NCBI GenBank assembly: GCA_032622095.1 | Contig: CP136061.1 | Coordinates: 19,408,991-19,472,990 of the forward strand | Reading direction: 5' to 3' | Length of the DNA stretch: 64,000 nucleotides | Source: Siphonodentalium dalli | Taxonomy: Eukaryota > Mollusca > Scaphopoda > Gadilida > Siphonodentaliidae | Part shown: piece after piece, positions 21,793 through 63,743 of the stretch | How the letters are laid out: the number at the start of each line of letters is the position of its first letter | Numbering within the stretch: the first letter of the stretch is position 1 | The notes under the pieces: generated by a model | Database searches by the model: none | Told to the model about the DNA's origin: nothing | The model's input: the letters and a program-made list of their open reading frames with translations, nothing else | Program-made: the position numbers and the translations under genes

Positions 21793-22247
21793 TTAACCCT
21801 TTACCCAACAAAACGGCCAAAAACGCCCAAATAAAGCTTCAACAGCCTAAAATACCCTGTGCCAATGCATTCTCTTATATATGCGAGTCGACCATAGGTC
21901 ACCTCGCATATATAAGAGAATGCATTGGCCTAACAATTTTTTATCATTTTTTTTAAATAAATGTTTCTAACAATTTTTAGGACATAAAATAAAAAAACAT
22001 CCATTACCCTGCAGGGAGCCCCACACATATATAGAAGCATATAGAAGAGTGTCGTCTGCTCATGTTTGTCTGGGGCTCTGTATGGGTGAAATTATAAAAT
22101 TGTTAAAGAATACAAGAAAAAATTATTAAAATTGTAAAAAATTGTTAGGCCAATGCATTCTCTTATATATGCGAGGCGACCTATGGTCGACTCGCATATA
22201 TAAGAGAATGCATTGGCACAGGGCCGTTCTGTTGGGTAAAGGGTTAA
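21793..22247. mobile_element. Complete TTAA-flanked family B element with two hairpins
   Basis: TTAA at 21793-21796 and 22244-22247. Inverted ends CCCTTTACCCAACA and TGTTGGGTAAAGGG. It has two ~75 bp hairpins (about 21851-21931 and 22146-22222), each with arm CCAATGCATTCTCTTATATA, around an AT-rich core that includes CCCTGCAGGGAGCCCCACAC. TTAA targets and CCCT ends are piggyBac-like. Confidence 0.75.
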
Positions 22248-22355
22248 CAAGGCTACACAGTCATTTAGATTGTCACAGAATGATAGATGTCTGGACTGAT
22301 ATACAACAGCCTCGAATGTCATGTGAAGGTTAGGTGAAGTAAGGGAGCTGAAGCA

Positions 22356-22609
22356 CAAGCCTTGAAATAGCGTGTCTGTCATTTGCAGAATGAGGTTCCC
22401 AGAGGGTGAATTTAGTGATGCTACCCTGCATAGCGGTCTAGCATCACTAAATTCACCCTCTGGGAACCTCATTCTGCTGAGGTGTAAGCAGAATGAGGTC
22501 CCCAGAGGGTGAATTTGGTGATGCTAGCCCGCTATGTGGTGTAGCATAACTAAATTCACCCTCTGGGGACCTCATTCTGCAAATGACAGACACGCTATTT
22601 CAAGGCTTG
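22356..22609. mobile_element. Hairpin MITE family A, copy 4, perfect 8 bp TSD
   Basis: CTGAAGCA at 22348-22355 and again at 22610-22617. The element is 254 bp: CAAGCCTTGAAATAG...CTATTTCAAGGCTTG, made of two adjacent hairpins joined at GCTGAGGTGTAAGC. This is the cleanest member, and the exact duplication supports hAT-type insertion. Confidence 0.85.
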
Positions 22610-22634
22610 CTGAAGCACTATATGGCACTGTTCA

Positions 22635-26539: not shown

Positions 26540-26655
26540 GTATGAAGAGTGAAAATACCAAACAATTCAGAAAACACTTAAATCGATTGATGTAACAATT
26601 CAAAAACATCATAGAGATAAGAGATCATCAACGGATCTTATATTACCTGACCATA

Positions 26656-27096
26656 TGTGACCCGCCATATCAAATCCAGTCAAAAGTCGGGATTTTTTTA
26701 CCCTGTGCCAATGCATTCTCTTATATATGTGAGTCGACCATAGGTCGCCTTGCATATATAAGGGAATGCATTGGCCTAACAATTTTAATAATTTTTTCTT
26801 GTATTCTTTAACAATTTTATAATTTCACCAATACAGAGCCCCAGACAAACATGAGCAGACGACACTCTTCTATGTGCTTCTATATATGTGTGGGGCTCCC
26901 TGCAGGGTATAATGGATGTTTTTTATTTTATGTCCTAAAAATTGTAAGAAACATTTATTTAAAAAAAATTGTTAGGCCAATGCATTCTCTTATATATGCG
27001 AGGCGACCTATGGTCGACTCGCATATATAAGAAAATGCATTGGCACAGGGTAAAAAAACTCCCGACTTACGACTGGATTTGATATGGCGGGTCACA
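26656..27096. mobile_element. TA-flanked element carrying two family B hairpins
   Basis: The ends are TGTGACCCGCCATATCAAAT and its inverse; TA lies on both sides (26654-26655, 27097-27098). It holds hairpins at about 26700-26776 and 26975-27051 and the same AT-rich core as 21793-22247, but different outer ends. Sister copies are at 54071-54532 and 57815-59696. Confidence 0.75.
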
Positions 27097-27639
27097 TATT
27101 ATTAAATGCGTCTTCTGTGCAATAGACCACCTACCACTAATTTGAATATACCGCAAGTGACAAGAAATACAGTATTACTGCATACATCTCATTTTCGTCA
27201 TAAATACAGATGAATGTGACTGCGATGAGTGATTGGATGGGGAGTAACTCTGTTTAACGATATTCCGTATTTTGACATTCGGCAAACTTTGTCAATCTCC
27301 ATATACAGTAGTATACTGCAATCTACCATTTGTATCATTTTGAACTCCTTGACCTGTGGTAGTATTGTAGCGGAGGCTGGCAATGTTTGTTGAATTATTT
27401 TATATGTAATTCCCTTGTGACCCGCAATTCGCAGAATCCAGCAGTTACAGCAGTCATTATTACAAAGATCAAGCAGTCTATTTATAAATCATTTGCGACA
27501 CTGTGTGTGGTTGTTCGTTAGTATGGTGAAGTCTCTTCATGCCAAATATAAAAACAATTTTAACAATGAAAATTCACCTGGTGGAAATGATTTGAAAATT
27601 AATTGCATCAAATAGATTCGCAGGACCCAAAGTTGAGAG

Positions 27640-37582: not shown

Positions 37583-37890
37583 GTGCAGATCCTCGTCTAT
37601 TTCACCAGCCCCTCATGAATCTGATTTCATTTGAACAATGTTGACTCTTAGCTCAACATATTTATCATGTTCAGAGTTAATTACATGATCTGAAAGCAGG
37701 CATGCAATACACAATGATTTGTCTTTGAATTTGCTATGTATAGAAAAACGCCCGTTGCATTCAACAATGGGTAAATAATGAAGGTATACTGAAGTGTAAT
37801 AAACCTTTCATGCCCTTTGAACAAGTGTGTACCTGTTTGGGCCCAGGACATAGGGAGCTGATTGTTTGACTCCTTGCTGTTTTAAACCTA

Positions 37891-38103
37891 CAGTAATGCC
37901 CTAAGTAATCGACTCCTTAACCACAGTAGAATTATGGGTAATCTTTCTGGATTTAGTCGGAAATATGGCTTGTTGCCATTCATCGGAAAGCTCTCACCGA
38001 GTGCTTTCTGATGAATGGCAACAAGCCATATTTCCGACTAAATCCTGAAAAGTTACCCATAATTATGCTGTGGTTAAGGAGTCGATTATTTAGGGCATTA
38101 CTG
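37891..38103. mobile_element. Palindromic MITE family P, copy 3
   Basis: CAGTAATGCCC to GGGCATTACTG with TA on both sides. Inverted repeat over the full 213 bp, apex near 37996. Nearly identical to the copy at 9283. Confidence 0.8.
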
Positions 38104-38649
38104 TACTTGTAAATCGAGTACATGGCTTTTGTCCGAAATACATGTACTTGATTTGAAGTTGTGCTGGGAACTAGCAAATTATTTTGGCCAATTTATTGGC
38201 GATTTCTGAATACTTGTGGCCATTTTGAAGGAACTTTAACCAAACTGGTAAAGCCATATATACACAAACATATCTGAACAAAAAAACATTAAAGGGACAC
38301 CTCGTGACTCTCCCATACCCCGTATTAAAGCTCGTGGCTCTTCCCCATACGACATTCAATTCGTTTCAATTCAACTTTTGCCGAGTTCAGACATGACGAT
38401 TTTTTTTGTTCAGATATCCTCAAAACAACTAATCGTGGGGTGAAGGAGAAGATCACTCGATCTTTTCGACCATCCCTGGCACTTCGCACCCATCCACTTT
38501 CCTCTCATATTGGGGGAAAACCATGCAAAAAAGAACCATGCACTAAACAAATGACATGTAACAAGCAAATAAAAAAAAACAACAACAAAAATTACACTGG
38601 AATTCTTTTTGAGAACCTGTTGTAACAGAATGCTGTGAGCCCCACCCCC

Positions 38650-38918: not shown

Positions 38919-39675
38919 TTAACCCCTTCTATACAAAATGGATTCTCCCATTCAGTTATAAAAGTATACATTGGAATGATCTATTATTCATTTGGAGGGG
39001 TTTTCAGGTAATAATAGGCTAGTAGACAGAAAAAAAGGTGATACAAGAGCAGAAGGATTCATTTTCATTGGTGGGAAATGTTCAGATAATGATATTATAT
39101 GTGATATCTACTCATCAATGATGCTTTAATATAGAAAGGGTTAAAGTTATCTGAACATTTTCTAGGGGGTAATTACTCATCAATGATGCTTTAGTATAGA
39201 AATGTTTATACTTATTATCTGAACATTTCCTATGGGATATCTGCTCAGCAATGATGCTTTAGTATAGAGAGTGTTAAACTTATTATCTGAACATTTCCTA
39301 TGGGATAACTACTCATCAATGATGCTTTAGTATAGAAAGGGTTAAACTGATTATCTGAACATTTCCTGTGGGATAACTGCTCATCAATGATGCTTTAGTA
39401 TAGAGAGTGTTAAACTTATTATCTGAACATTTCCTATGGGATATCTGCTCATCAATGATGCTTTAATAGTATAGAGAGGGTTAAACTTATTATCTGAATA
39501 ATTCCTATGGGATATCTGCTCATCAATGATGCTTTAATAGTATAGAGAGGGTTAAACTTATTATCTGAACATTTCCTATGGGATATCTGCTCATCAATGA
39601 TGCTTTAATAGTATAGAGAGGGTTAAACTTATTATCTGAACATTTCCTATGATGCTTTAGTATAGAGAGGATTAA
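38919..39675. repeat. Satellite array derived from TTAA MITE family S (about 8 units)
   Basis: The left end TTAACCCCTTCTATACAAAA matches family S. From about 39120 to 39675 a unit of 67-71 bp repeats head to tail: AACTTATTATCTGAACATTT, CCTATGGGATATCTGCTCAT, CAATGATGCTTTA, TAGTATAGAGAGGGTT. Each unit ends in the right terminal repeat plus TTAA of the MITE. Confidence 0.85.
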
Positions 39676-39913: not shown

Positions 39914-40176
39914 TTAACCCTTTCACGACGGGGGTTGCGCTGATGCAGCATTAAAGATCCTGTGCCAGTGCATATTCTTATATATGCGAGTCTCTCATAA
40001 GAAGCTTCGTAAATACAAGAGAATGCACTAGCTTACAAGGTCAAGGTAAATATTGTTAGGCCAATTTATTCTCTTACATATGTGAGGCTGCCTATGGGAG
40101 ACTCGCATATATAAGAGAATGCATTGGCACAGGGTTTTTGAAAAATTTCAGGAAGCTCCAATCATGGACGGGTTAA
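39914..40176. mobile_element. TTAA-flanked family B element (CCCTTTCACGACGGG ends)
   Basis: TTAA at 39914-39917 and 40173-40176. The left end reads CCCTTTCACGACGGG, the right ATGGACGGG; two diverged hairpins lie at about 39957-40032 and 40057-40136. Relatives with the same ends are at 56191-56368 and 63411-63743. Confidence 0.7.
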
Positions 40177-41857: not shown

Positions 41858-42685
41858 TAGCCTGGATATAGTGTGCCTGAAATATGAAGAATGAGTTCCC
41901 CAGAGGGTGAATGTAGTCACACAGCATGCTAGCATCACCAAATTCACCCTCTGGGGACCTCATTCCGCTTAAGCCTCATCTTCTAGGAAGTATCTATAGT
42001 CTCAGATTAATATTGCTTTAGTTACTTTTCCCATCTGTTCAGTTTATATATCCCCTAATTTGCAGAAGATAAAATTCATAATTGAGGTGATTAACTTTTT
42101 ACCCAACAGAAGGGCCCTGTGCCAATGCATTCTCTTATATATGCGAGTCGACCATAGGTCGCCTCGCATATATAAGAGAATGCATTGGCTTAACACATTA
42201 AAAATTATAAAATTGTTAAAGAATGTAAGAAAAAATGGTAAAAAGTGTTAAAAAAAGATTTTTTTTAGGCCAATGCATTCTCTTATATATGCGAGGCGAC
42301 CTATGGTCGACTCGCATATATAAGAGAATGCATTGGCACAGGGCATAACTGTAACTATCACAATGTGGTCAAGGAGCCGGTTCCAATGATATCCATATGT
42401 GTATGGTTCTATTGAGACAGACCGAAGATATTTTAGGCTGTTGAAGCTTTATTTGGCCGGTTTTGGCCGGTTTGTTGGGTAAAGGGTTAATGGGTGAACA
42501 TCACCAACTTCAACTGGGGAACTTCAATCTGATCCTAGTTCTTCCATAGCAGTTGAGGCCTAAGCAGATTGAGGTTCCCAGAGTGTGGATTTGGTGATTC
42601 TAACCCGCTGTGTTGGATATATAGCATCACTAATTTCACCCTTTGGCAACCTTATTCTGCAAATGTCAGACAAACTAAAACTTGA
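41858..42685. mobile_element. Hairpin MITE family A, copy 10, split by a family B insertion
   Basis: Family A sequence runs from 41858 to 42090 and resumes at 42491 (ATGGGTGAACATCACCAACT), so the gap is an inserted element. Both outer ends are worn (TAGCCTGGATATAG; AAACTTGA). Confidence 0.75.
42091..42490. mobile_element. TTAA-flanked family B element nested in family A
   Basis: TTAA at 42091-42094 and 42487-42490. The ends are CTTTTTACCCAACA and TGTTGGGTAAAGGG. Removing it with one TTAA restores the family A sequence GGTGATTAATGGGTGAA, which fixes the target site. Hairpins at about 42115-42190 and 42268-42345. Confidence 0.85.
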
Positions 42686-42688: not shown

Positions 42689-42745
42689 CTATCCAATGCC
42701 ATTCTCTTGTCTTCTTAAAGAAGACAAGAGAATGGCATTGGATAG
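42689..42745. repeat. Perfect 57 bp palindrome (28 bp arms, 1 base loop)
   Basis: CTATCCAATGCCATTCTCTT then GTCTTCTT, one A, and the exact complement. It starts like the family B hairpin arm (CCAATGCATTCTCTT) but the apex half differs. It sits directly beyond the right end of family A copy 10. Confidence 0.85.
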
Positions 42746-43203: not shown

Positions 43204-43431
43204 TTAACCCTTTGAGCGCCAGGTCGATTTTTGTATCAACCCATATACCCTGTGCCAATGCATTCTCTTATATATGCGAGTCGACCATAGGTCGCCTCGC
43301 ATATATAAGAGAATGCATTGGCCTTTTTTACAATTTTTTACAATTTTAATAATTTATTCTTATATTCTTTAACAGACTTATTTTGTAGGTTTAGGGCCGA
43401 TAAGATCGGCCCCTGGCACTCAAAGGGTTAA
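43204..43431. mobile_element. TTAA-flanked family B element with a single hairpin
   Basis: TTAA at both edges. Inverted ends CCCTTTGAGCGCCAGG and CCCTTTGAGTGCCAGG, with one hairpin (about 43248-43323). At 228 bp it is a compact form of the family at 15671 and 60690. Confidence 0.8.
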
Positions 43432-43439
43432 AGAAACTT

Positions 43440-44460
43440 TGATATTTTACATGATGCCAGCTTGACACATATGGAATTCTGGATTAATATTCTATCAATA
43501 CATGTACATTGTTTAATTTGATCACATACCGGTGTGTGTCCAGGGACTTAGAAGGAAGTACTCTTATGTGACACATATACATCTTAAGATGTAAAAAAAA
43601 TATTGATTATCTTGATGTGGAACAAGTACTTTATGTGTAGGTATTGTGATTTGACACCTTAATTTATCATGGAGAATTGTTCACAATACACCATTGATGA
43701 ATGCAGATCAATCACTTTAAGCTGTATAAAGGAATCTATGCTAGTTACACACATGCGTATATTGACTTAATGTGCGCCGTATATTGATATAATATGAGCC
43801 GATTGTTTCTTGTTCTAATGTTTTCTGTATTGTCGAGGTTGGGAATACCCTTGAACCTGAATAAGTACAATGATATAGAAGATTCTACCTGACGTGAGTG
43901 TCACGACACAGTTTTACCTATTGTGTGTGGTTTGGACCCCCCATACAGACACGTTGCTCAAGCCTTGTTATATTTTCATTCAGAAGGACTCGTTGAAAAT
44001 CTCACCGGAAAAAGGGGCCTAACAATAAGTGAATTATGTGACAATTATTCCATACATGTATAATATTGAAAACTTACATTGTGATCCTATTGTACCTTCT
44101 TTTATCATCAAGTTTAGGCCAAAGAAAAAACAATTGTGGCTGGGATTTACCGATTGACCATACTAGTATTTAAATCCCTAAATTGTGTTTTACGGTTTTC
44201 AAAAAATTAAAAACAAAACATTTGTAAAACATTTCATGGAAAAAGAAAAAAAACATTCGTTGTCCCTAAACAGGTTGATTTTTCGGTCATAGCATTGTTT
44301 ATTACAGTTTAAAATCAAGATTAGTCTTTGATAATCTTGCTGATAAAAAATAAGGCTGGAAAATTAAGCCATAAGAATAACGGGGTATGTCAAAATAAAA
44401 AACAAAACAATTTTTTTTAAACCATTAATGCTATATACCTACGGACCCTATTGTTGTCTG
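43440..44460. other. Intergenic AT-rich DNA, no feature recognised
   Basis: No coding motif, splice-flanked exon, terminal repeat or tandem array seen on either strand. Confidence 0.5.
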
Positions 44461-48623: not shown

Positions 48624-51600
48624 GTATGTATGTCTTATGCAGAATGTTCAAAATTTCTACAAGTGACTAAAATAACCTACATATGCATGCCTGTGTATTC
48701 TAGAATTCTGTTCCTATTTCATCATCGTCAGGAACAAAATTTGCAGCAGATGAGCAAGCCTTGAAGTTGTGTGTTTGACATTTGCAGAATGAAGTCCCCA
48801 GAGGGTTAATTTAGAGATGCTATCCCACATTGCAGGCTAGTATCACTAAATTCACCCTCTGGGAACCTCATTCTGCTTAGATCTCATCTTCTATGGAAGA
48901 CCTAGTGTCAGCTTGAAGTTCCCCAGTTGAAGTTGGTGATGTTCACCCATTAGTCACCTCAGTTATGCATTTTATCTTCTGAAAATTAGGAGATATAGAA
49001 ACTGAACAGAAGGGAAAAAGTAACTGAAAACAATGTTAATATGAGGCTATAGATACTTCCCAGAAGATGAGGCCTAAGCAGAATGAGGTCCCCAGAGCAT
49101 GAATTTGGTGTGGGATAACTGAAAACAATGTTAATATGAGGCTATAGATACTTCCCAGAAGATGAGGCCTAAGCAGAATGAGGTCCCCAGAGCATGAATT
49201 TGGTGTGGGATAACTGAAAACAATGTTAATATGAGGCTATAGATACTTCCCAGAAGATGAGGCCTAAGCAGAATGAGGTCCCCAGAGCATGAATTTGGTG
49301 TGGGATAGCATCACTAAATTCACCCTCTGGGGACCTCATTCTGCAAATGTCAAACATACTATACCCAGACTTGAACAGCTGTATTATGCCACAACTAGTG
49401 CTGCTCTTGTTCACTAAACATTTTTATTACATTCCTTGATTTCTCGAGTGATTATAAATGTTAATTTTACTTGTGAATTATGTCACTTTAACTAGCGCAT
49501 TATGTATTCATATGTGATATCGACATTTATGCGTCATGGCAGTATTATTTGGGTTTCTGGTAAATAAGATGTTTATAGTGGAATATAATAAACAAAATAA
49601 TAAATTGATTGAACTGGTGACATGAAATATTTCATTCGAGGCAGGGTCAATTTTGTAAAACACTCGAGCGCATTGCGATCTCATGTTTGTACAATGTCCC
49701 TGCCTCTTATGAATTATTTCACATCACCAGGTCAACTAAGTGACTATATATTATTGCAGCCGTAATGGACGCCTTGAAGGGACTCCAGGATAAGATAAAG
49801 AAACTGGAGGAAGAGAGAGCAGCAGCTGAAAATAACTTTAAATCACTTGCGAGTGAAACGAGTAAATACAAAGACATGTTACAACGAGAGATTCGTATTG
49901 ACGAACCGAGGAAAGTCAGTGAAACAGCGAACTATGTCTCCAGTGCAACTGTTCCATCTCAGAGAGTAACATTTCCCACGAGGGAATCATACATTCAAAC
50001 TAAAAGCATTCCATCCAGAGATCCTCCCTATGTGCCAAGCAAAACAATTCCTGTGAAAGAATCTATACATACTAAAGGTAGATAACTTACTTTGTAATAC
50101 GACCCTGCCTAACTATGCTTAAAAGCCATGTCCTGATTGGCCAGTGGCCCGAGTTACCATGGCTATCTCGTTCCAGTTTTGTGGTACAATTCTACTTTTT
50201 CCAATTGTACCACGAAAAAAATCGGTTTATTCAGATCGCCGCACGCGACTTTTCCCGTTTCTAACTCCGCGCAAACGGGGCATCAACGGAGTACACCCGC
50301 ACCCGTAACCCTTTGAATTTTGCTACATCTTGACAATCTTGCGAATTTTCTAGCGATTTGTCGCTTGAAACCAGTTTGGTTGCCAATGAATATGGTCCAA
50401 ATGATGTTATGTTATATTGATATATGTTACGACCAAAGAAAGTTACTTAATAAGTATATTAAATGACAAAATAAATCCATGGGGCCGGGCTGTGCATTCG
50501 ATTCGAATCTCGATCATATTCGATATTTCGGAATCAAGTTGAAAATGAAAGCGTGTGTTCACCAGTAAAGAAGGGGAATAAGATTAGTTTAGTAAACTAG
50601 ATCACTTAGATCACTTAGATCGCTTAGATGATCATATTCATGTCCCAACAACGTTCAAAACAGAAATGACGGCAATCGTATTTCCTGTACAATTTAAATG
50701 AAACGCACGGGCGCCGCTGAAAACACATCGTTTTTTAGCCAATCACAACGATTATTTCTAGAAGAGGATGCCTCGAAAAGTCAACGGGGGAATTTCATAA
50801 CAAGACAAGACATTACCAGAGTACTCCATGCAAAGAAATCGAGTACGCCCATTACACCACGAATTACACCACAAAATCGAGTACGCCCATTACACCACCA
50901 TTACACCACGAATTACACCACGAAATGTTTTCTCACCTGAGACCGAAAAAGCGCAGTATTTCGTTGACTATTCAGTCGAATAGTGACCATAAACTTTCAG
51001 TCGTATTACAAAAGAAATAAATACACGGTGTATCGGTGTGTATGGTCAAGTTGTACCACAAAAAACTGATTGTAGGACTCCGCTACGCGTCGTCTTACAA
51101 TCAGTTTTTTGTGGTACAACTTGACCATACACACCTCTACACCGTGTATTTATTTCTTAATTATCTAGGCTTTCCGCCAGATTTTGGGGAACGGGTCCTG
51201 TATCTGCCGAGGGGAAAATGCAGTCAATGTCGTGGAAACACTAGTGGACCTACTTTTGTTGTATCGGCCAATAGAAGAATCAGAGAGTAGATTTGCTGAT
51301 TGTTTTGCATCCATTTTCTTCCCAAGTTACTATGCTATCAACCGCAATAACTTTAAAACCTAGAAAATTTATTAGAGTAAAATTAATTGCCAGGTTATAG
51401 ATCACCAGTGGTGAAGGCCTTGTTCGCAGTATACGGAAACGCGCCCGTTGAAGTTAAACGACTCACTATTCAAGACTCGGCAGATAGTTCGGATGCATAA
51501 CGTGCCGGAATATAACACTCAGCAGATAGACGATTAGCAGGTTGGAAGCAATGAAGGAATAGAATAAAGGCGCAATGTTTTAGTTCTAAATATCAAGCTA

Positions 51601-54600
51601 AATTATAATAAACATAGATAAGATGCTTTGAAAAAAATGGAGTGAATATATATATTTTACAACATGAAGATAGAATCAGTGGATATGATTAAATTATCGG
51701 CAGTCATTTTTCGTAACCTAACCGCAGCAACGTAACCAGCCGACTCCAAAGCATGTGTTCTAGCAATGTCGGGTTTGATCACTTCCTCAGTTCATCTAAC
51801 TGTGTCTGCAGGTTGGAGCTAGCGTGCAACGTGCATAGCCAGGTGTGATCGTTCAGAATCCGGAGCATTTCAGTAAAAACTAAATAAAGTGTACTCTATA
51901 TTCTAATTGGAACACATCGACCCTGCAACTATTTAAATTTCTTAGTGCTGTCCCAACAAAATTGAGAAGTAAATATCTTTATACCTTTATACATGTACAT
52001 ATGGAATATGTCCTGTGGCATGACAGAAGGGGGAAAATTGGCTGGGGGGAATGGGACCATTAAAGGGATCCCCTGCCCTACTAGCGGAAAGCCTGCTTTA
52101 TCATATCACCCGTCTTAAGGGAAAAGTAGCTATTCATTCTATTTTAAAGGTATACAATGTATAGATAAATTTATTTTGACATTGCAGTAGTAAACAAAAG
52201 ATGTGGGTAGCAATCTATACATCTTTCTCTGGACTTTGCATTATATATGAGGAACCTTGATTAACTCTTTCAGTGCCAGGGGCCGATCTTATCGGCCCTA
52301 ATTAACGGTCTAAAATCGGTCCTAAATTTTGTTTGTTTTTTTTTTGGAATGAATTTTTTTTTTGGGTATGCTTAAGCATGCTATAGCGAATTTAAAAACA
52401 AACTGGATAAAATCTTAGGGGCATTTTATAACTCAAAACTATCACCAAGTATTCATAGTAATAATTTTGATGCCCATGAGGAACCTTGATTAACTCTTTC
52501 AGTGCCAGGGGCCGATCTTATCGGCCCTAATTAACGGTCTAAAATCGGTCCTAAATTTTGTTTGTTTTTTTTTTGGAATGAATTTTTTTTTTGGGTATGC
52601 TTAAGCATGCTATAGCGAATTTAAAAACAAACTGGATAAAACCTTAGGGGCATTTTATAACTCAAAACTATCACCAAGTATTCATAGTAATAATTTTGAT
52701 GCCCATGAAAAACGTAAGATTCCCTGGCACTAAACCTACAAAATACTGAAAGAGTTAAAGAATATAAGAAAAAATTATTATGTCTTAATATAAGAAAAAA
52801 TTATTATGTCTTAATATAAATGGAATCACCAAGATATTTTGTTTTTATTTTGTCAAATATAGTAATGCATGGTTTTTTTCTTCAAAAGAATATATCCAGA
52901 AAAAATATTCCTTTTTAGTGTCTTCATCTCCCTGATGTACATGTGTACATGTACATAATTACACATATTATTAAAATCAGAAGTTTTGACTTAAGACTAT
53001 CTATACATATCCCATATACGTGAAGCAGAGGTACAAATAATTGACCTTTCCTAATGTTTCCATTGGTGACATAATGTATATGCTTCAAGTGGCAATGAAC
53101 ACTAAATCAACCAATATACATGTACAGTATCTGCCATAGTCATACTGTTAAAAAAAAAAAAATATATATAATTTCAACAAAGAATTTTCCGGGGATCTAT
53201 CCAACGAAATATTTTGAATTTCACATATCCTCATCTTGATTGTATGTTCGGTAGAATCTTAACAATTATTAAGAAAAGACCAAAGCAATGGATTTTAATA
53301 CATTTGAGAGGTTGAAAATATAATTTTCTTTTTTGTCTCTTTAGGTACCAAGAACTGCTGTCATATTTAATAGTTTTACACAAGAATCCAATCACCAAAT
53401 AGATGATAAATGTGATGGATTCGGTATATTTAGTGTATTTGGTGAATATGGTACTAAAATAAAAACCTGCCCCCTCACAAAAACAATTTAGAATAAATTA
53501 TAAATAAAAATATCTGCCTCCCTCATCACTTTGAAAATAATAATCCCCTGAGAAAGGAACTATTTTGTTTACCTGGTCGTAATGTTATCTTATTATAGAG
53601 ATGGAAGGTCAGCTGAATGCAGCCCAGAACCGATGTAACTTGTTAGAGAAACAGTTAGGCTACATGAGAAACATGGTTCACAATGCCGACCGAGACCGAC
53701 AGGAGTCAGCTAGTAAAGGAGCAGCGTTAGACAGAGTAACCACGGTTACCAGTTATGAGGAAAGCAATCATCCAGAGTTCCAGACGCAGCTCGACCGATT
53801 AGCAGACTTAGAGAGGGATCACGAACAGTTAACAGCCACTCAGACTTCAGCACAAGTAAGTTCATTAGGCCCCATATAGACCAAGTCATCTCGGTCCACA
53901 ACAGCTTGGGATATCGGTTGGGTTGATTTTATTTTTGGACCGAGTCCCCTCCATTTGCTCTTCAATAACAGACTTGCACTCAAAAGACGTATATGTGGAG
54001 CCCGGGCATTCACTGTGATTAATTATCTCACATGTCAGCGATGAATCTCTTTTCAAATTGGTATATCATATGTGACCCACCATATCAAATCCAGTCGGAA
54101 GTCGGGATTTTTTTTACCCTGTGCCAATGCATTCTCTTATATAATATGCGAGTCGACCATAGGTCGCCTCGCATATATAAGAGAATGCATTGGCTTAACA
54201 ATTTTTTATCATGTTTTTTAAATAAATGTTTCTTACAATTTTTAGGACATAAAATAAAAAAACAATCATTACCCTGCAGGGAGCCCCACACATATATAGA
54301 AGCACATAGAAGAGTGTCGTCTGCTCATGTTTGTCTGGGGCTCTGTATGGTGAAATTATAAAATTGTTAAAGAATACAAGAAAAAATTATTAAAATTGTA
54401 AAAAATTGTTAGGCCAATGCATTCTCTTATATATGCGAGGCGACCTATGGTCGACTCGCATATATAAGAGAATGCATTGGCACAGGGTAAAAAAATCCTG
54501 ACTTACAACTGGATTTGATATGGCGGGTCACATATACTATAATAGATAATGGTAAAGTGATGATACGATCGTTTATTGTATTGTTTACATGCATTTTCGG

Positions 54601-57600
54601 ATAGCGAGACAAATCAAAATTCTCTGGAAAACAAGTTTTTTTTTTACTTATAAATCTCGTTGCTGTGACAACTACTGACCTCTGATATGTGCATATTTGA
54701 TATCATCATGCTTGGGGAACGCTGCCCTCTATGTTCTTATATGCAAAGCTTCCATTTAACCTAATTTGAAGACATACAAGTAAGATATCTCCCACCCACG
54801 ATTCCGGATGTAAAGTCTGTTGTAGAAAAGTAACAGGAGGGGACTCAGTCCAAAACGGCATCAATCCAACCGATATCCCAAGCTGTTATGGACCGAGAAG
54901 ACTTGTAATGATGGTCCGACCACCACCCCACCTTACGTGCGTGAATAAACCACCAACCACTACCACCCCCCCTGTTACATGCTGGAATTTTATGGCCCCC
55001 TCACCTGCACTTAGTCTGTATGTTCGTGCAAAACTAAAATATCACAACAGTTTCATTATATTTTCAGTCCAATTTGGCCAATAAAATAAAATATCTGTGT
55101 TCTCAATTATATCTTCATTTTGAAATTAGGGAGGGATGCTATTTATTTTTATTTTGTCTCAAAATCTGGAAAATTTTAGAGGCCTACTCCTGCCTACTCC
55201 AGAAAAAATAAATATTTTTGTTGTTCAAATCTAACATTTACCACCAATGATTATGAATTCTTACTTGTATTATCATTTCGTCTGGCTGACATCTGCTCAT
55301 ATATATCTTTAACATCCCTCCAAATGAATATAAGACTGTTCCAATGTATACTTTTATAACTGGTGGGAAAATCTATTTATTATAGAAAGTGTTAAAATAT
55401 ACTTTCAGAGAAAAATAAGAGATCTTGAAGACAAATTAAGAACAGAACAACATCATCGAAAACTGATTCAAGAGCGGACGGATGAGGTAAAAGCTACTCG
55501 ATCAGCCATCAAACCATCAATCACAGGCAGTGCAATTCGAAAAAGTTATCAGCCAACATCGGTAAAATTTTCCTCATCAAAAGCTATTGTCCTGTCATTA
55601 GATCTCTATAGAGAATTAAATTCACCGTTCTTATAACTGTATCTGTACCTACAATTAAATCTGATAGTAACATCTAATCTGTTAACTCAACTTATTCAAA
55701 TTCCATAGTTCTCAACCTCGTTCTCTGAAATTACTCGTTCAAATACACTAGTTGTTTCTCAACTTTTTCCGATAGTCGTTTCAAGTTTATGTGTCTACAT
55801 TTCCTGACTTACACGATATTATGGTTGAACAATCTTCATTCTAGGTTAAGTTTTATAACATTCATCATTTGGTTGTGGTTCATGGATAACTTTTCTTTCA
55901 TATCATTTAAGTCATTGATTGAAAATCTTAAACATATTAACCTAATGAAGTAAAACACACCATTGTATTTTTGGACTCTTTTTTTTTTTTAATTTGAAAG
56001 TTTTTCTTCCATTTCCATTCATGGCCAAAGATTAAAATTAAATTCTTGGAATTTAAAGAGACTCATAATCTTCAAACCTCAAATTAAATCCAGCTATTTC
56101 TCCTTTTTACCATGTTCTGGTGATCAAAATAGGTCAATAAATAACTGAAATACTTATAAAGTTATACTTCTGTTTGTAGTTATTAGGCATTTAATCCTTT
56201 CATGATGGGAGCTGCGCCAGTGCAGCATTAACGATCCTGTGCCAGTGCATTTTCTTATATATATATATGAGTCTTCCATTGCTCCCTATCAGAGACTCGG
56301 ATATAAGAGAATGCTCTGGCACAGGGTTTTCGCAAAATGTCAGGAAGCTCCAGACATGGAAGGGTTAATGTTCATATATAAATATTTTAAGTATTAATTG
56401 AACTATTTTGATCCCCGAAACATAACAAAATTACTAGGCTAAATTTGAGGCTTGGATATTGTAATTTACTGGATGTTGTAACAAATCTTACTAAACTTTA
56501 CCACGCCATCACTATTATATATGATTGTTATATAATTATACTCACAAATCACTCAATTTCACATTACTCACTCAATATATTTATTGTTAATCCACTAGTA
56601 ACACTCACTCCAGACTAATATTGTGAATTATATACAGGTCTTTAACCCTTTCTATACTAAATGGATTCCCCCACAGAGTTATAAAGGCATACATGGGAAT
56701 TCTATTATTTGAAGGGGTGAATTAGCAGATTATAGTCAGAAGAAAAGATAATACTAGTGCTGAAGAATTCATATTCATTGGTGGGAAATGTTCAGATAAG
56801 TTTGTTGAACTTATTATCTTATTATTTCCCACCAATGAATTATTATCTGAACATTTCCTATGGGATAGCTACTCATCAATTGTATTTAGTATAGAAAGGG
56901 TTAAACTTATTATCTCAACATTTCCTATGGGATAGCTACTCATCAATTGTATTTAGTATAGAAAGGGTTAAACTTATTATCTCAACATTTCCTATGGGAT
57001 AGCTACTCATCAATGATATTTAGTATAGAAAGGATTAAACTTATTATCTCAACATTTCCTATGGGATAGCTACTCATCAATGGTATTTAGTATAGAAAGG
57101 GTTAAACTTATTATCTCAACATTTCCTATGGGATAGCTACTCATCAATGGTATTTAGTATAGAAAGGGTTAAATTTATTATCTCAACATTTCCTATGGGA
57201 TAGCTACTCATCAATGGTATTTAGTATAGAAAGGGTTAAACTTATTATCTCAACATTTCCTATGGGATAGCTACTAATCAATGGTATTTAGTATAGAAAG
57301 GGTTAAACTTATTATCTCAACATTTCCTATGGGATAGCTACTCATCAATGGTATTTAGTATAGAAAGGGTTAAACTTATTATCTCAACATTTCCTATGGG
57401 ATAGCTACTCATCAATGGTATTTAGTATAGAAAGGGTTAAACTTATTGTCTAAACATTTCCTATGGGATAGCTACTCATCAATGGTATTTAGTATTCACT
57501 TTAACAAATTTGTTGATGTTATCAATTTGACTATGTTTAATGGTATCTGTCCCCCGAAAAATAATCTGGAGGACTGTAAGTATGACTGGTTTAGGGCCTA

Positions 57601-60600
57601 CATATTTGATTCCACTTTGAAACATTGAATAGTAATTTTGAATATTCATAAATTACCAATGAAACAGTGATGATTACTCTACATAGAAATTAAATTTTCT
57701 TGTTTCTTAAATGCCATCATCACAAAAAAATCAGCTTTTTCAGGTGAAATGAAACTTCTTCAACTTCAGTATCTTTGGAAACTGTAGTTCTTATAGCATT
57801 CCATGTTAAACATTTGTGACCCGCCATATCAAATCCAGTCGTAAGTCGGGATTTTTTTTACCCTGTGCCAATGCATTCTCTTAGGCCAAACAAAATTAAT
57901 GAATTGATTCTCAGGCAATTTTTTTTTCAAATGAATGAGGGAGGGCGGTTTTTATTTTTATTTTTTATTTCCAGCGGCCAGTTCAGACATACATCTGGGA
58001 TCCATGAAATCAAGACCAGAAGGCTCAATTAATTGTGGAATCATTATAATTGAAACTGCGAACCAATAAACAAAACAAAACAACAGACTAGTAGTGAAAT
58101 AAAACTGGAAAAGTGTATAAAATAAAATATATGCATTGAAGTATCCTACTTCTAAAATAACATCGAGGTTGTTCCTCTTAAAGCTAAGCAAATGAAAGGA
58201 CGGAAAATGGAATGATTATATTAAATATAGTGAGGTATTAAACTGATGTTTGCCATTCACACTGTTTAAATGCGTCTTGGGAAATTGCAGACATGCTCAT
58301 TTTGCCTTGTTTCATTTAGCTTTCAACTTCTCCTGTTTCTCACTAGAGAAGTTGCGCTTACGAGTTAGCACTGTCTGAAATTTTTCAAGACACGTCTTAC
58401 ACTGTGGATGGCAACCATCAACCTTGTCCAAATCTTCCATTCCACCACATTTTATGCAGATGTCTGGGAAGGATTTACAGCTGAAATATGGAATTTCGAT
58501 TTGGTCAGAGCATTTAAAGTTCTGTCGAACATACACCCTCACAAATCACGGAATTTGCCGGTGAAGAAACGGCACGACTCGTTTGTTTGTGAACTTATAA
58601 ATAACTGTAAATAATGCAACCTGCTTTAATGAATGACATTAGTTCGCTTTATTTAATCATGTTTTTTTGCGTAAATACCGAGGCCTATCATCTCCCCAGC
58701 AGCGCACTGCCATAACTCGCCGTAGTTCGTTTCGAAGTGGTATTCCTGTCGTAATTATTACATTACCACGTGCTAAAAGCGTAAACCGGAAATAGCGAAT
58801 TCCGGCACTTCCGCAAACAGAGAACTCGCCATGAACTCGCCACTTGAATGCGAATCGGCTGCGATTTGAATTATTTGATCGTTGGTTGTTTGGATTTAAA
58901 ATAAAAAGAGTTAGGCGGCCCCTATTTTATGAGAGCGGCGGTGCCTGAGAATCAATTCATTAATTCTTTTTGGCATTAGTGTAAGTTGTTCACAATGACT
59001 AATTGTAAGAAGAGCATGAGGATCAACTTATCATTTTCTTAATTGTAGTCATCTACTTCATGTTGTAAGCCTGCAAGTCACTTTTTAACACATTACATGT
59101 TTAATAGAGCTCAATGCACACTAATATTCAACACATATCTGCTATGGACATGTTGATACAAAAAAAAAACAAACATTTTTTTTTTTTTTCAAATTTATTT
59201 TTTCGTAAGTTTTTTTGTCATAACATCAGGCATAAGCAATAAAAAGTCCTAATGCGGCCCTTTTTATTCAATGCGGCGGGGCCTGAGAACCAAAACCTTT
59301 TTTTTTTTTGGCCTTATATATGCGAGTCGACCATAGGTCGCCTCGCATATATAAGAAATGCATTGGCCTAACAATTTTTTACAATTTTAATAATTTGTTC
59401 TTGTATTTTTAACAATTTTATAATTTCACCCATACAGAGCCCCAGACAAACATGAGCAGACCACACTCTTCTATATGCTTCTATATATGTGTGGGGCTCC
59501 CTGCAGGGTTTTTTATTTTATGTCCTAAAAATTGTCAGAAACATTTATTTAAAAAAAATGATAAAAAATTGTTAGGCCAATGCATTCTCTTATATATGCG
59601 AGGCGACCTATGGTCGACTTGCATATATAAGAGAATGCATTGGCACAGGGTAAAAAAAATCCCGACTTACGACTGGATTTGATATGGCGGGTCACATATC
59701 AACATTGGTGCAATCTGCATATTCGGGGAAGGGCAGTTTACTTGTCTTTGATTATGATGGTACAGGCACGCTTGAGTTATGAATGTCAAGTTTGGACGAA
59801 CAACGAATGATGCAGAATGATGAAGGAAAAAAAAAGAGTATTTTAATAATTGTTCATCCTGGTTTGGTATGAGTCCTTCTTTACTTTTAGACATTCACGT
59901 CATTGGATATCTATATATAATAAGGGTTAATAATTGTTCATCATATGACTCATTTCTTTACTTTTATACATTGACATCATTGGATACCGGTATCTATAAT
60001 CATTATTTGATATTTAACAGCTGGAAACTAATACATTACGCAATAAGTGTAAGTTCACTCCAGAACTCTATCTAAAGAGCCATGACTCGACAAAGATGAA
60101 CAAGAAGGTTGTCAAAAAGAAGAAAAAGCCTCTAGGTGCCAAGAAACAGAAGACATCGAAAACGTCGGGACCTCACACACATTACCGACTCAACCTCAAC
60201 GACATTCCATTTGTAGCTGGCCAGGTGAGTCTTAATGGTAGCACCTATTGACCCGTGTTAAAATTAAACTTTTTCATGGGCTGATCCATGGCAGTGTGGT
60301 ATTTGTCAAGGACTACAGTAATGCCCTAAATAATCGATATAATATTTCCGACTAAATCCTGAAAAATTACCCATAATTCTGTTGTGGTTAAGGAGTCGAT
60401 TATTTAGAGCATTACTGTACCGGTATATCACCACAATGATAACTATTCAAAGAGAGTGTAGGTTTTACTCCAGGTAAGGGTCAGCCAAGAATTCATTTCT
60501 CTAAAAATATGATGGGAATATGCATTTTATGCCACAGTGAATATGTTGTGAACATTTTTAATTAAAATATTTATTAACACTCCCTTTGAGTAAATGTTAA

Positions 60601-63367
60601 TAGTTTGATATATCATCTGTACATGAGTTTAGGTTGTACAATAGATCTTCATTAGATCTTTTTTTTTTCAATAGATCTTCTTCTTTTTTTTGGGTTGAAT
60701 TTTTTTTGGGTATGCTTAAGCATGCTATAGCGAATTTAAAAACAAACTGGATAAAACCTTAGGGGCATGTTATAACTCAAAACTATCACCAAGTATTCAT
60801 AGTAATAATTTTGATGCCCATGAAAAACGTAAGATTCCCTAGCACTAAACCTACAAAATAAGTCTGGCACTGAAAGAGTTAAAGAATATAAGAAAAAATT
60901 ATTAAAATTGTAAAAAATTGTAAAAAATAATAACAAATGATGAAAAATTGTTAGGCCAATGCATTCTCTTATATATGCAAGGCGACCTATGGTCGACTCG
61001 TATATATAAGAGAATGCATTGGCACAGGGTATATGGGTTGATAAAAAAATCGGACTTGGCACTGAAAGGGTTAAACAACACTGAATGTCGAGCCACCAAC
61101 CAATATCCTTGTGGACGTAAAACATAATTGAATTGATGTCACTCACCTCGATCAGCGACCAATCAGAACTGATGTCAATCGGGTATTCACTTTACCAAAT
61201 TTGTTGATGTTATCAATTTGACTAAGTTTTGCTTCCCTTCTAGCAGGATGAACTGATGATATTGTACCGAATATTTTTTATTCTAAATCGCGTTATTGTT
61301 ATTAGTTGGCATATAGTATTTGTTTTATCTGTTGTTTGCTCTGTTCAAGCCTGCAAATAATGTGTCTGTCATTGCAGAATGAGGTTCCCAGAGGGTGAAT
61401 TTAGTGACGCTATCCTGCATAGCGGGCTAGCATCACTAAATTCATCCTCTTGGGACCTCATTCTGCTAAGGCCCTCAACTACTATGGCAGACCTTGGATC
61501 AGATTGAAGTTCCCCAGTTGAAGTTGGTGATGTTCACCCATTGGGCACCTCAATTATGAATTTTATCTTCTGCAAATTAGGGGATATAGAAACTTCCTAG
61601 AAGGGAAATGTAACTAAAAACAATGTTAATTTGATAATATAGATACTTCCCAGAAGATGAGGCTAAGCAGAATGAGGTCTCCAGAGGGTGAATTTGGTGA
61701 TGCTAGCCCACCGTGTGGGATAACATCACTAAATTCACCCTCTGGGGACCTCATTCTGCAAATGACAGACACGCTATTTGCAGGCTTGGCTCTGTTGGGG
61801 CCTCGGTGGCTCCGTCGGTTAGAGGTACAACTCCAAGCCAGCGCTGGTGATGAGGGTTCAAATCCACCTGTTTCCATCATGGACTTTGTAACTCAAAATT
61901 GTTATCTGGTGGAGTTGCCAGTTACTCCACAATGGCTGGTTGTTTGCTGCGCATGGTCAACGAGTTTATCAGCCATTGAAATCACTGTTAGATTAGCCGT
62001 ATAAGTGTGTGAATTTCCTCCACCACTAAAACTGGCAATGTCGTGATATGGCCTTAGTTGCTGAAAGCAACAATTTAACCCCAATCAGTCAATCAATCAA
62101 CTATGCTCTGTTCATAGCATATGTCACATTATGAAGGTCAATAAGTACCTAATGCAGGGAAATATTCAGGGCTGTTTAGATACCTGTTACAGGTTTGGGC
62201 GCCCAAACTCTGGTAGCCCAAATGTCCCCAAATTCTTAGTAGACAGTATTTTATCAACATGAATTTTTTTTTAAATTTTCAAGGCATAATTAAAAAGATT
62301 AACAATACATTGTGTAAATAGTAAATATGTAGTTGCAATTTGGCCTTCAGTTGCATGTCAAATGTTTTATCAGAATAATTGTGTCATCGCAAATTATATG
62401 GGGACATTCTCACCCGAAACAGGTGTCCCCAAAAATTCTCTGGGTTTGTCACTGTCCTAATGTCACTTTAACCCAAAATTAATTCTCTATAACATTTTCA
62501 TTGTCCCCCAAACTTTTCGGAGGACTATTGTAATCAGCCGCGTCCATCTGTGCGTCCATCCGGAGTTATAACTCCAGTAATGATCATCCGATTTGATTGA
62601 AACTTGGTACATGTATGTAGGTGTCTCAACCAAGAACACAGGTGCTCTGCATTCTGGGTTTGATCCGATGTTCTTTTATGGAGTTATTTCCCTTTTTTCC
62701 ACTTTTTTTTTTTTTACTTAGAATGGAAAAATAAAATATGTTTTTCATGGTTTCCAGGCTTGGAAAAACAACAGTTGAAGGGAAACTGTAAACTAAATCC
62801 GGCCATTTATAGGACCATCTCCTTTTAATCAACAGAATATATGCAACAAATGAATTAATATGAGCCATGGATTAGTGCAAAATACACCCATGTGCTCTAT
62901 GAATGATGCAAACAACATTGTAATTATAATAAAAATGAGTTTATGACCGAGTCAAGTACAGTAATTACCATCATTTGTTGCATATATTCTGTTAAGTATA
63001 AATAGGAGATGGTCCCATAAATGGCTGAATTTAGTGTACAGTACCCCATTAAATTCAAATACTTTCAAGATTGTTTAACATCTGCATGAACCATATTGAA
63101 AATAATAGCTTAAATTAGTAGCATGTCCGAGTAAAATATTATTCACCTGAATATATTTTCATTATGTTTTCAGTCAGCAACTGCAAGTCATTCCCTCGGT
63201 GCTAATGTCCAGAAGGTTCTGTCATTGATGAAGAAACACAATGCAGCACTATGTGGTGAGAATGTGGATCGGCCGAGTTCCAGTTCATCTTCCGGGTCAT
63301 GCTCTGACACTAATGACCTCTCCGAACTCATGCTACAACTGCAGGATGAATTCGGACAAATGAGTTG
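48488..63367 (+). CDS. CEP57: CEP57-like centrosomal / microtubule-binding protein (3' end beyond window)
   Basis: Coding segments: 48488-48623, 49760-50077, 53599-53855, 55409-55561, 60021-60224, 63174-63367, all GT-AG and in phase: 420 codons plus two bases. The N-terminus has YPTDKPFINDDY, matching the vertebrate YPSDKPF motif. Residues 46-75 begin a coiled coil (ALKGLQDKIKKLEEERAAAE). Residues 152-237 continue it (NRCNLLEKQLGYMRNMVHNA), followed by a basic stretch KKVVKKKKK and the microtubule-binding domain (HYRLNLNDIPFVAGQ, then HSLGANVQKVLSLMKKHNAA, LMLQLQDEFGQMS). Known: CEP57 lies at the centriole with CEP63/CEP152, binds and stabilises microtubules, and helps spindle and centriole engagement. 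CEP57L1 is the vertebrate paralogue; one invertebrate gene is likely to stand for both. About 100 C-terminal residues should lie to the right. Confidence 0.9.
48755..49373. mobile_element. Hairpin MITE family A, copy 12, with 95 bp triplication
   Basis: CAAGCCTTGAAGTTGTG to ATACCCAGACTTG. A 95 bp unit starting TAACTGAAAACAATGTTAAT is present three times head to tail (49021, 49116, 49211), nearly identical, so the duplication is recent. No clear TSD. Lies in CEP57 intron 1. Confidence 0.8.
49760..50077 (+). CDS. CEP57: CEP57 exon, start of coiled coil and long linker
   Basis: Residues 46-151. It opens AVMDALKGLQDKIKKLEEER, the first coiled coil and centrosome-localising segment, then a Ser/Pro/Thr-rich linker (for example VPSKTIPVKESIHTK) clearly longer than the human spacer at this place. 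The acceptor is ATATTATTGCAG and the donor AAAG|GTAGAT, phase 1. Confidence 0.88.
50680..51160. repeat. CpG-richer block with tandem repeat and long hairpin, unclassified
   Basis: An unrecognised 80-codon frame (50698-50940) whose end is a ~37 bp tandem repeat with CGAGTACGCCCATTACACCA. Then comes a 63 bp-arm hairpin (51012-51074 with 51096-51158), only two mismatches, loop of 21 bases containing ACGCGT. The arm word TTGTACCAC also occurs near 50181-50214 as a small hairpin. Possibly one transposon; no superfamily mark. Confidence 0.5.
52261..52758. mobile_element. Family B end fragment with 229 bp tandem duplication
   Basis: TTAACTCTTTCAGTGCCAGG occurs at 52261 and again at 52490; the 229 bp between are nearly identical. 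The right edge is TGAAAGAGTTAA (to 52758). The ~75 bp hairpin is absent. Confidence 0.65.
53599..53855 (+). CDS. CEP57: CEP57 exon, second coiled-coil block
   Basis: Residues 152-237. EMEGQLNAAQNRCNLLEKQL then YMRNMVHNADRDRQES matches the vertebrate ...NKCNLLEKQLEYMRNM motif. A heptad-rich segment LDRLADLERDHEQL follows. The acceptor is TTATTATAG and the donor CAA|GTAAGT, phase 0. Confidence 0.92.
54071..54532. mobile_element. TA-flanked element carrying two family B hairpins
   Basis: TGTGACCCACCATATCAAAT to its inverse, 462 bp, with TA on each side. Hairpins at about 54116-54193 and 54410-54488; core with CCCTGCAGGGAGCCCC. The best-preserved uninterrupted sister of 26656-27096. Confidence 0.8.
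55312..55397 (-). mobile_element. Relic end of MITE family S
   Basis: The reverse strand reads TTAACACTTTCTATAATAAA then a TTTTCCCACCA and TATAAAAGTATACATTGGAA block, the left part of family S. It lies 12 bases before a CEP57 exon, within the acceptor region. Confidence 0.6.
55409..55561 (+). CDS. CEP57: CEP57 exon, coiled-coil end; two possible donors
   Basis: Residues 238-288 if the far donor is used: RKIRDLEDKLRTEQHHRKLI then ERTDEVKATRSAIK. An equally good donor, GAG|GTAAAA at 55486/55487, is also in phase 0 and would remove 25 residues. The short form is closer to the human spacing before LETN. RNA evidence is needed to choose. Confidence 0.75.
56191..56368. mobile_element. TTAA-flanked family B element, single hairpin
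   Basis: TTAA at 56191-56194 and 56365-56368. The left end reads TCCTTTCATGATGGG, the right CATGGAAGGG; one diverged hairpin lies at about 56236-56327. Confidence 0.7.
56642..57492. repeat. 67 bp satellite derived from MITE family S (about 9 units)
   Basis: Begins TTAACCCTTTCTATACTAAA. From 56903 a 67 bp unit repeats exactly in register (56903, 56970, ...): AACTTATTATCTCAACATTT, CCTATGGGATAGCTACTCAT, CAATGGTATTTAGTATAGAA, AGGGTT. Units are nearly identical. The last unit breaks in the terminal repeat at 57492. Confidence 0.9.
57884..59313. mobile_element. 1.43 kb Harbinger-like insertion with TTA target duplication
   Basis: TTA at 57881-57883 and 59314-59316. The ends are GGCCAAACAAAATTAATGAA (left) and, inverted, GGCCAAAAAAAAAAAGG; both reach a TTCTCAGGC block. 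An inner inverted repeat, AATGAATTGATTCTCAGGCA, recurs complemented at about 58943-58963. A 3 bp TWA target with GG ends fits PIF/Harbinger. No transposase or DDE frame is visible. A 62 bp relative may lie at 11380-11441. Confidence 0.65.
58312..58542 (-). CDS. Cys-rich open frame inside the Harbinger-like element (doubtful)
   Basis: A 76-codon frame with no ATG start. It contains CIKCGGMEDLDKVDGCHPQC and KTCLEKF, spacing that could bind zinc, then a basic end (RKRNFSSEKQEKLKAK). A stop lies two codons upstream. It may be a remnant of a cargo or accessory protein, or chance. I do not recognise the family. Confidence 0.25.
   Translation of the reverse strand: MRVYVRQNFKCSDQIEIPYFSCKSFPDICIKCGGMEDLDKVDGCHPQCKTCLEKFQTVLTRKRNFSSEKQEKLKAK
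60021..60224 (+). CDS. CEP57: CEP57 exon, basic region and start of microtubule-binding domain
   Basis: Residues 289-356 (long form). LETNTLRNK begins it, a Lys-rich stretch KMNKKVVKKKKKPLGAKKQK follows, then HTHYRLNLNDIPFVAGQ, the conserved opening of the CEP57 microtubule-binding domain (vertebrate HYRLCLGDMPFVAGK). The donor is CAG|GTGAGT, phase 0. Confidence 0.93.
60316..60417. mobile_element. Palindromic MITE family P, copy 5 (left arm mostly lost)
   Basis: CAGTAATGCCCTAAATAATC then a jump to ATATTTCCGACTAAATCCTG and the right arm to CATTACTG, with TA on each side. Mirror-image deletion to copy 4. Confidence 0.7.
60690..61074. mobile_element. TTAA-type family B element, left end unclear
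   Basis: Right end CTTGGCACTGAAAGGG plus TTAA (61071-61074). The body includes TATGCTTAAGCATGCTATAG and a hairpin at about 60951-61030. It is the reverse of 15671-16126. The left edge merges into T-rich DNA near 60660. Confidence 0.65.
61346..61788. mobile_element. Hairpin MITE family A, copy 13, perfect TSD
   Basis: GCTCTGTT at 61338-61345 and 61789-61796. CAAGCCTGCAAATAATG to CTATTTGCAGGCTTG, 443 bp, both hairpins and core intact. A SINE abuts its right duplication. Confidence 0.85.
61797..62104 (+). mobile_element. tRNA-derived SINE
   Basis: Pol III boxes: A box TGGCTCCGTCGG (61807-61818) and B box GGTTCAAATCC (61855-61865), spaced as in a tRNA, but the head does not fold as a functional tRNA. 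A ~180 bp body follows, then TTTAACCCCAATCAGTCAAT and an ATCA-type repeat tail to 62100. GCTCTGTT flanks it (61789-61796 and 62105-62112). Confidence 0.8.
62505..62700. repeat. Interspersed repeat fragment (CGTCCATC type)
   Basis: CCCCCAAACTTTTCGGAGGA, CGTCCATCTGTGCGTCCATC and GGAGTTATAACTCC resemble the TCCG-type repeats at 14560, 32518 and 34670. Confidence 0.35.
62779..63048. mobile_element. MITE family D, long inverted ends
   Basis: The left AACTAAATCCGGCCATTTAT...GCAACAAATGA pairs with the right inverse (ACACTAAATTCAGCCATTTA...GCAACAAATGA) over about 75 bases. Flanks TTGA and ATTAA suggest an original TTAA target. Copy 1 is at 29661. Confidence 0.65.
63174..63367 (+). CDS. CEP57: CEP57 exon, microtubule-binding domain
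   Basis: Residues 357-420 plus two bases. SATASHSLGANVQKVLSLMK then KHNAALCGENV, a Ser-rich loop, and LSELMLQLQDEFGQMS, matching vertebrate LSEVLQTLQDEFGQMS. The donor TG|GTGAGT leaves a split codon, so the gene continues past 64000. Confidence 0.93.
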
Positions 63368-63410
63368 GTGAGTGTTCATCCACACAATCAGCTGGCTTTT
63401 ATAACCCTTC

Positions 63411-63743
63411 CATGACTGGAGCTTCCTGAAATTTTGCGAAAACCCTGTGCCAATGCATTCACTTTATTATGCGAGTCTCCCATAGGGAGCCTCGCATATA
63501 TAAGAGAAAGCATTGGCCTAGTAATATTTACCTTGATCTTGTAAGCCAGTGCATTATATTATATATGCGAGGCTCCCTATGGGCAACTCACATATTTAAG
63601 AATATACATTGGCCTAACAGTATTTACCATGACCTTGTAAATCAGTGCATTCTCCCTACAGGAGACTGGCATATATAAGAGAATGCACTGGTACATTATA
63701 TTTAATGCTGCACCAGCACAGCTACCGTTATGAAAAGGATAAT
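63411..63743. mobile_element. Family B element, reversed, with three diverged hairpin units
   Basis: ATAACCCTTCCATGACTGGA at the left and a worn TTATGAAAAGGATAAT at the right; reversed relative to 39914-40176. Hairpins at about 63445-63518 and 63546-63618, and a partial one to 63690. It begins 43 bases after a CEP57 exon. Confidence 0.65.

Follow-up and report, generated by a model that had tools for sequence, protein, structure and literature searches.

A small hairpin-ended unit is shared by short elements with unrelated outer ends in the 64-kb stretch of DNA analysed here (the window, to which all results refer). We consider it probable that this unit entered several MITE backgrounds, most simply by nested insertion, and then hitchhiked on transposases acting on the outer ends. 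The interior of the elements is most readily explained as passenger DNA that was nested or captured.

The hairpin module and its carriers

The hairpin module is 69 nt long and consists of 32 base pairs, one T/C mismatch and an ATA loop. In the 69-nt consensus of types A, B and C (GCCAATGCATTCTCTTATATATGCGAGTCGACCATAGGTCGCCTCGCATATATAAGAGAATGCATTGGC), 27 pairs are followed by the mismatch, five further pairs and the loop, and the mismatch is invariant in all 15 aligned modules, four of which belong to type P. The predicted folds reach -55.1 kcal/mol as RNA and -36.1 as DNA, each with a z of -15 against shuffles. At up to 3 mismatches the hairpin arm has 32 matches in the window where 0.01 are expected, and a chance origin of the copies is therefore excluded; the apex has 13 matches (shuffles average 0.00).

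We count 19 modules across 11 short elements. Their outer ends fall into four types, three of which (A, B and P) lie at TTAA and one (C) at TA. The original prediction was thus right that the outer ends of the hairpin carriers differ. Reading inward from the outer end, all 13 A/B/C modules show the order CCCTGTGCC-hairpin-GGCCTAACAA in the same orientation. The elements and associated features are listed below; a strand is assigned where one is given.

21793..22247: A1, with TTAA-CCCTTTACCCAACA ends and opposed hairpins at 21861-21929 and 22149-22217; its inner unit (21855-22223, 369 bp) contains the CCCTGCAGGG core
42091..42490: A2, with ends of the A1 type and hairpins at 42121-42189 and 42269-42337; the inner unit is shortened and the CCCTGCAGGG core missing
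15671..16123, + strand: B1, with a TTAA-CCCTTTCAGTGCCA left end and one hairpin (15722-15790), after which inner spacer joins a B-type element; the right end is damaged and the end coordinate approximate
43204..43431, + strand: B2, with TTAA-CCCTTTGAGCGCCA ends, one hairpin (43254-43322) and TTAA on both sides
60684..61074, - strand: B3, B1-like (96% over 391 columns), with one hairpin (60955-61023), a truncated far end and an internal second B-type end at TTAA (60865-60882)
26654..27098: C1, with TA-TGTGACCCGCC ends, hairpins at 26707-26775 and 26976-27044, and inner unit 26701-27050
54069..54534: C2, with TA-TGTGACCC ends, hairpins at 54123-54194 and 54413-54481, and inner unit 54117-54487
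57813..59698: C3, with C ends at 57813-57860 and 59651-59698 and two hairpins, the left one split by an insert
57884..59313: the C3 insert, 1,430 bp inside the left hairpin arm, with ends GGCCAAA.../...TTTGGCC and a 3-bp TTA duplication
39914..40176: P1, with a TTAA-CCCTTTCACGACGGG left end, opposed P-lineage hairpins at 39964-40032 and 40060-40128, and TTAA on both sides
56191..56368: P2, with P ends, one hairpin at about 56234-56327 and TTAA on both sides
63401..63742: P3, with P ends, an altered TTAA at either end, and a row of hairpins at 63449-63517, 63545-63613 and, degraded, 63640-63697
52490..52758: a hairpin-free, B-ended, TTAA-bounded element, next to which 22 bases of inner spacer remain
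42689..42745: a stand-alone perfect hairpin with a 28-bp stem and a 1-nt loop, whose arm differs from CCAATGCATTCTCTT by one inserted base

This inventory refines the earlier description in several respects. All 18 of the positions predicted to hold a hairpin do contain one or a part of one; that list omitted the third, degraded hairpin of P3, and the hairpin elements begin at 15671, upstream of the start at 21793 that had been given for their span. The copy placed at 59314 represents only the right-hand part of a C3 hairpin, the left part of which runs to 57883; its reading as a separate truncated element was rejected, as it is one half of C3 split by the 1,430-bp insert. From its target site we take this insert to be reminiscent of PIF/Harbinger elements. 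Opposed pairs, described as usual, are found in both A and all three C elements (two modules each), but each of the three B elements has a single hairpin, and P1, P2 and P3 have two, one and three, respectively. The single hairpin of P2 resembles a fusion of two hairpins, each contributing its outer half. The apex first quoted for all copies is that of A, B and C only, type P having GAGTCTCCCATAGGGAGCCTC or variants of it. Finally, the core that three end types were thought to share, CCCTGCAGGG, occurs at four sites, namely A1 and C1-C3, and belongs to two end types.

Outer ends, target sites and the unit that moved

In size the elements that have both ends conform to MITEs (178-466 bp), C3 being longer through its insert only. 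Inverted ends are present in A and C, and in B2 over the first bases; the two ends of P elements are barely alike past the first 10 nt (291/300 shuffles for P1 and 41/300 for P2). Six TTAA-type elements have both ends; TTAA flanks five of them on either side (A1, A2, B2, P1 and P2) and is altered in P3, and the far ends of B1 and B3 are not intact. Among the C elements, C1 and C2 are flanked by TA at either end, and C3 by TT to the left and TA to the right.

Seven stop-to-stop frames of at least 90 aa in or near the elements were compared with Pfam and matched no family at E 0.01, so that superfamily names are assigned from target sites and termini. From the TTAA target site and the CCC-type termini, which are typical of it, A, B and P are putatively assigned to the piggyBac superfamily; C, from the TA duplication flanking C1 and C2, is presumably of the Tc1/mariner superfamily.

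Which part of these composites was mobile can be read from A2, which is inserted at a TTAA inside another repeat, unoccupied copies of which occur in the window. When the flanks of A2 are joined with one TTAA, they align without gaps over 124 columns (92.7%) to 22846-22723, and similarly to repeat copies at 49013, 61594 and 4833. In the copy at 4713-4833 the TTAA is uninterrupted at the insertion site, and this copy is the empty site. Of the other copies, three read CTAA and two CCAA at that position, and a seventh stops short of it. The outer ends are thus what moved, A2 matching its empty site. Joining the flanks of eight elements gave an empty site within the window for A2 and for none of the other seven. 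The host repeat itself (AAGCCTTGAAATAG...AGAATGAGGTCCCC) is very abundant and in places a long palindrome; copies lie at 22349-22616, 41859-42094 with 42487-42675, 61336-61792 and elsewhere.

One interior, several unrelated ends

The modules of A, B and C are 0.914-1.000 identical between types and 0.926-0.988 within a type. Mean identities within types (A 0.976, B 0.943, C 0.970) resemble those between them (A-B 0.961, A-C 0.973, B-C 0.958), and the right-hand modules of A1 and C2 are identical. The outer ends of different types do not align past TTAACCCTTT, the first 10 nt, which opens the A, B and P ends; the C ends match no other type, the first ten bases included. Over the nine of 20 ends that were compared, 28 between-type pairs aligned no better than shuffles (the lowest, 9/300, for the left ends of B2 and P2). 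The proposal that elements with unrelated ends carry the hairpin is borne out by this combination.

A tree of 18 of the 19 modules (P2 left out) rejected A, B and C each as a single clade, with AU p values of 0.032, 0.032 and 0.021, the identical A and C rows being unconstrained in two of these tests. Compared with shuffled labels, A and B show no extra clustering (500/500 as low) and C hardly any (101/500). All four labels taken jointly are more clustered than shuffled ones (7 changes, 2/200 as low), which we put down to P. The P modules form a group of their own (support 81/90) and are more diverged, with a mean identity of 0.697 among themselves. Strongly supported branches are absent from the module tree and its bootstrap is unsettled; since it is weakly resolved, more weight is placed on the inner unit. 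Between A1 and C1, C2 and C3 the inner units differ at 8/348, 7/368 and 5/337 positions (1.5-2.3%), and among the C copies at 8/347, 10/317 and 7/336 (2.1-3.2%).

Modules that are alike, A1 and C inner units that are nearly identical, and ends that cannot be aligned mean that the ends did not merely diverge and that the inner unit changed carriers. The suggestion that the hairpin moves between MITEs, or is captured by them, accordingly stands for A, B and C, among which the inner unit of A1 is as near to C as the C copies are to one another; for P, which groups separately, divergence of the ends is also possible. Agreement between hairpin and end trees, named in advance as the outcome that would speak against exchange, is not seen among A, B and C: the three clades are rejected, and the A1 unit lies within the spread of C. 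Type P carries an older, distinct hairpin lineage, for which a common origin with diverged ends is possible.

Inner edges and the route of entry

The outer edges of the modules are sharp. Against several different flanks, 16 of the 19 read exactly CCCTGTGCC; two read TCCTGTGCC and one is degraded. The inner unit accordingly has fixed edges (CCCTGTGCC ... GGCACAGGG). TA precedes 11 of the 19 edges, including all those of C and B and the left edge of A1, and is missing at the right edge of A, at the left edge of A2 and at the intact edges of P. Only in C does it flank the inner unit at either edge, and there the outer sequence is itself palindromic: C elements consist of a near-perfect outer palindrome with the inner unit at its centre and TA on both sides. 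The edge sequences suggest a TA target rule for the inner unit.

Since the edges are fixed, nested insertion of a unit with ends of its own fits better than free template switching. According to this model, a small non-autonomous inner unit would possess inverted repeats, the hairpins forming their inner portion, and this unit would have entered, whole or by half, the unrelated MITEs A, B and P (at TTAA) and C (at TA). The simplest entry would be a nested insertion through the unit's own edges; transposases recognising the outer ends would then have multiplied the composites, spreading the hairpin as a passenger. Against this model speak the restriction of two-sided TA to C elements, the single empty site obtained from eight elements, the weakly resolved module tree, and the fact that no free inner unit bounded by CCCTGTGCC alone was seen among the 11 elements.

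A possible route, to which we give clearly less credence, is ectopic gap repair. Here the break left by excision of an A- or C-type MITE would be filled by copying the interior of another hairpin element, a template switch swapping the ends. Palindromes may favour such switches, the right junction of A meets the module after just 24 bp with GGCC/CCC microhomology, and the inner unit of A1 lies inside the spread of those of C; gap repair of this kind was moreover proposed for P-element MITEs (PMC1562414). It would, however, need repeated identical breakpoints, the same edge being found at 16 of 19 positions across differing flanks.

It is rather doubtful, in our view, that the hairpin is the mobile unit itself, a tiny, sharply bounded palindrome able to invade MITEs served by different classes of transposase, so that one parasite would ride several transposition machineries at once. 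Part of this doubtful reading is that 42689-42745 would be a related form of the hairpin standing alone. No recognisable MITE ends were seen in its flanks, and an arm match like its own occurred 3 times in 60 simulated windows, so that a chance origin of its likeness to CCAATGCATTCTCTT seems unlikely.

That all types are one old family whose ends merely diverged has very little to recommend it: TTAACCCTTT opens A, B and P alike, but the ends cannot be aligned although the inner sequences of A1 and C are about 98% identical, and C lacks even the first ten bases, so that this reading is already contradicted for A, B and C and may apply to P, whose hairpins differ.

Proposed rebuilding of type B

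Returning to nested insertion, type B carries the trace of what may be a further event. In B3 the spacer matches the inner unit through ATTCTTTAAC, after which comes the B-type end TCTTTCAGTGCCAG; A1 and C1-C3 have AATTTTATAAT at this point. B1 has the same join with an altered TTAA, and in B2 12 bases are lost at the join. The B junction falls at a TTAA. A second B-type element would have landed at a TTAA within the inner spacer, and the resulting B element would combine the outer left end with the right end of this second element. By its sequence, the element at 52490-52758 looks like the second B element of such a composite. It was also considered as the original hairpin-free host and rejected, as inner spacer adjoins its TTAA boundary.

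Does the hairpin have a role of its own?

The original prediction also allowed for a replication or expression role. A hairpin kept by selection, be it as a small-RNA precursor or as a DNA structure that raises copy number, seems improbable to us, and several observations had to be weighed. The fold is very stable, the T/C mismatch is constant, and three pairs are changed on both sides, mostly in P versus the rest (columns 5/65, 30/40 and 31/39). In this pair count, made on 15 of the 19 modules including four P rows (P2, P3c, C2L and C3L left out), the covariation score was reached by 4/500 shuffles, the two-sided cells by 9 and the paired cells by 0. The number of two-sided pairs was, however, reached by 214/500 shuffles, and the covariation tool itself warns that related sequences can outscore shuffles without structure. 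It is possible that pairing is maintained in the source copies, via selection or arm-to-arm copying.

The 11 intact hairpins among the 13 A/B/C modules (C2L and C3L left out) contain nine substitutions. Against such a role, none of these is compensated and three break a pair; in its favour, six leave G-U, acceptable to RNA but not to DNA. Six substitutions are of the CpG type, a change expected when methylated DNA decays. Across A1 and C1-C3, substitutions number 6/483 in the hairpins (seven of eight, C3L left out), 13/841 in the spacer and 8/286 in the C ends (hairpin versus spacer, p=0.81; hairpin versus C ends, p=0.16), and between B1 and B3 they number 3/69 in the hairpin, 1/45 in the left end and 7/268 in the right part. 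The hairpins evolve in the same way as the other parts of the element, and no slower than the spacer.

A search of the whole window against Rfam gave no match at the gathering threshold. Below it, 51 matches were obtained for 42000-43500, of which 48 are to miRNA models and may stem from the long stems. With uncompensated changes, a spacer-like rate and no Rfam family at threshold, the suggested role was not upheld, and we see no clear sign of a cellular one; the hairpin is probably inert.

Genomic context

The window is eukaryotic and repeat-dense. In Pfam, three of five scanned frames correspond to consecutive segments of the Cep57 centrosome-localisation domain (49744-50085, 53583-53879 and 55334-55636; E values 7e-13, 5e-20 and 1e-5, of which the third falls short of the curated cut-off), and this part of the window therefore contains a gene split by introns. 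The pieces of this Cep57-like gene (49744-55636) are separated by MITE-rich stretches, one of which holds C2. A 292-aa open frame at 44938-45816 (- strand), without a Pfam match, resembles the end of a LINE reverse transcriptase. Two further kinds of repeat were observed. TTAACCCTTTCTATACTA or a close variant recurs at 67- and 71-bp spacing at 56887-57440 and 39467-39626, as a tandem TTAA-type MITE end. Three related palindromes (839-1056, 9285-9493 and 37881-38113) have arms of 103-115 bp that are 90-98% complementary, with 0-3 nt between them.

Significance and relation to known systems

If the pattern holds genome-wide, one palindromic module has crossed between TTAA- and TA-target elements, and edge and empty-site statistics could then test whether MITE interiors, whose origin is disputed, arise as copied fill or by nested insertion. 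For repeat annotation, clustering based on interiors would merge families moved by different transposases. As a passenger, the hairpin is of interest chiefly for transposon specialists.

The literature search, which covered few subscription papers, found neither a module common to TTAA- and TA-type MITE ends nor a description of this hairpin family, and six short element strings matched no paper. Exact hairpin-arm and C-end patterns had no matches in viral, bacterial and archaeal contigs, a result of little weight for eukaryotic elements.

Several known systems invite comparison. Galileo has inverted repeats much longer than those here. This Foldback-like element shares long inverted repeats with our elements and belongs to the P superfamily, and the available text describes it without the exchange of outer ends between superfamilies seen here (PMC4168063). 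The hAT-derived MITEs with tandem repeats at cod inversion breakpoints, as far as their accessible description goes, are too distant to serve as a parallel (PMC12368964).

The statement in the original prediction that no named system of this kind was known is too strong, since composite MITEs are in print and ectopically copied interiors have been proposed (PMC1562414). For the P-MITEs of Anopheles gambiae, this source proposes ectopic gap repair and macrotransposition as the origin of composite and ectopic-fill elements. AgaP2-P12MITE and the ectopic-fill P-MITEs resemble the elements described here in having the ends of one lineage and the interior or second end of another, and the macrotransposition proposed for AgaP2-P12MITE resembles the putative history of type B; however, the ends of AgaP2-P12MITE differ inside one superfamily (P), whereas here TTAA- and TA-type elements have a hairpin-bounded unit in common (PMC1562414). 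In the composite MITE MER6, as here, a foreign module entered a MITE and the composite then spread; MER6 has one mariner-derived carrier and a V-SINE domain, in contrast to the at least three carrier types and one hairpin-ended unit described here (PMC6887750).
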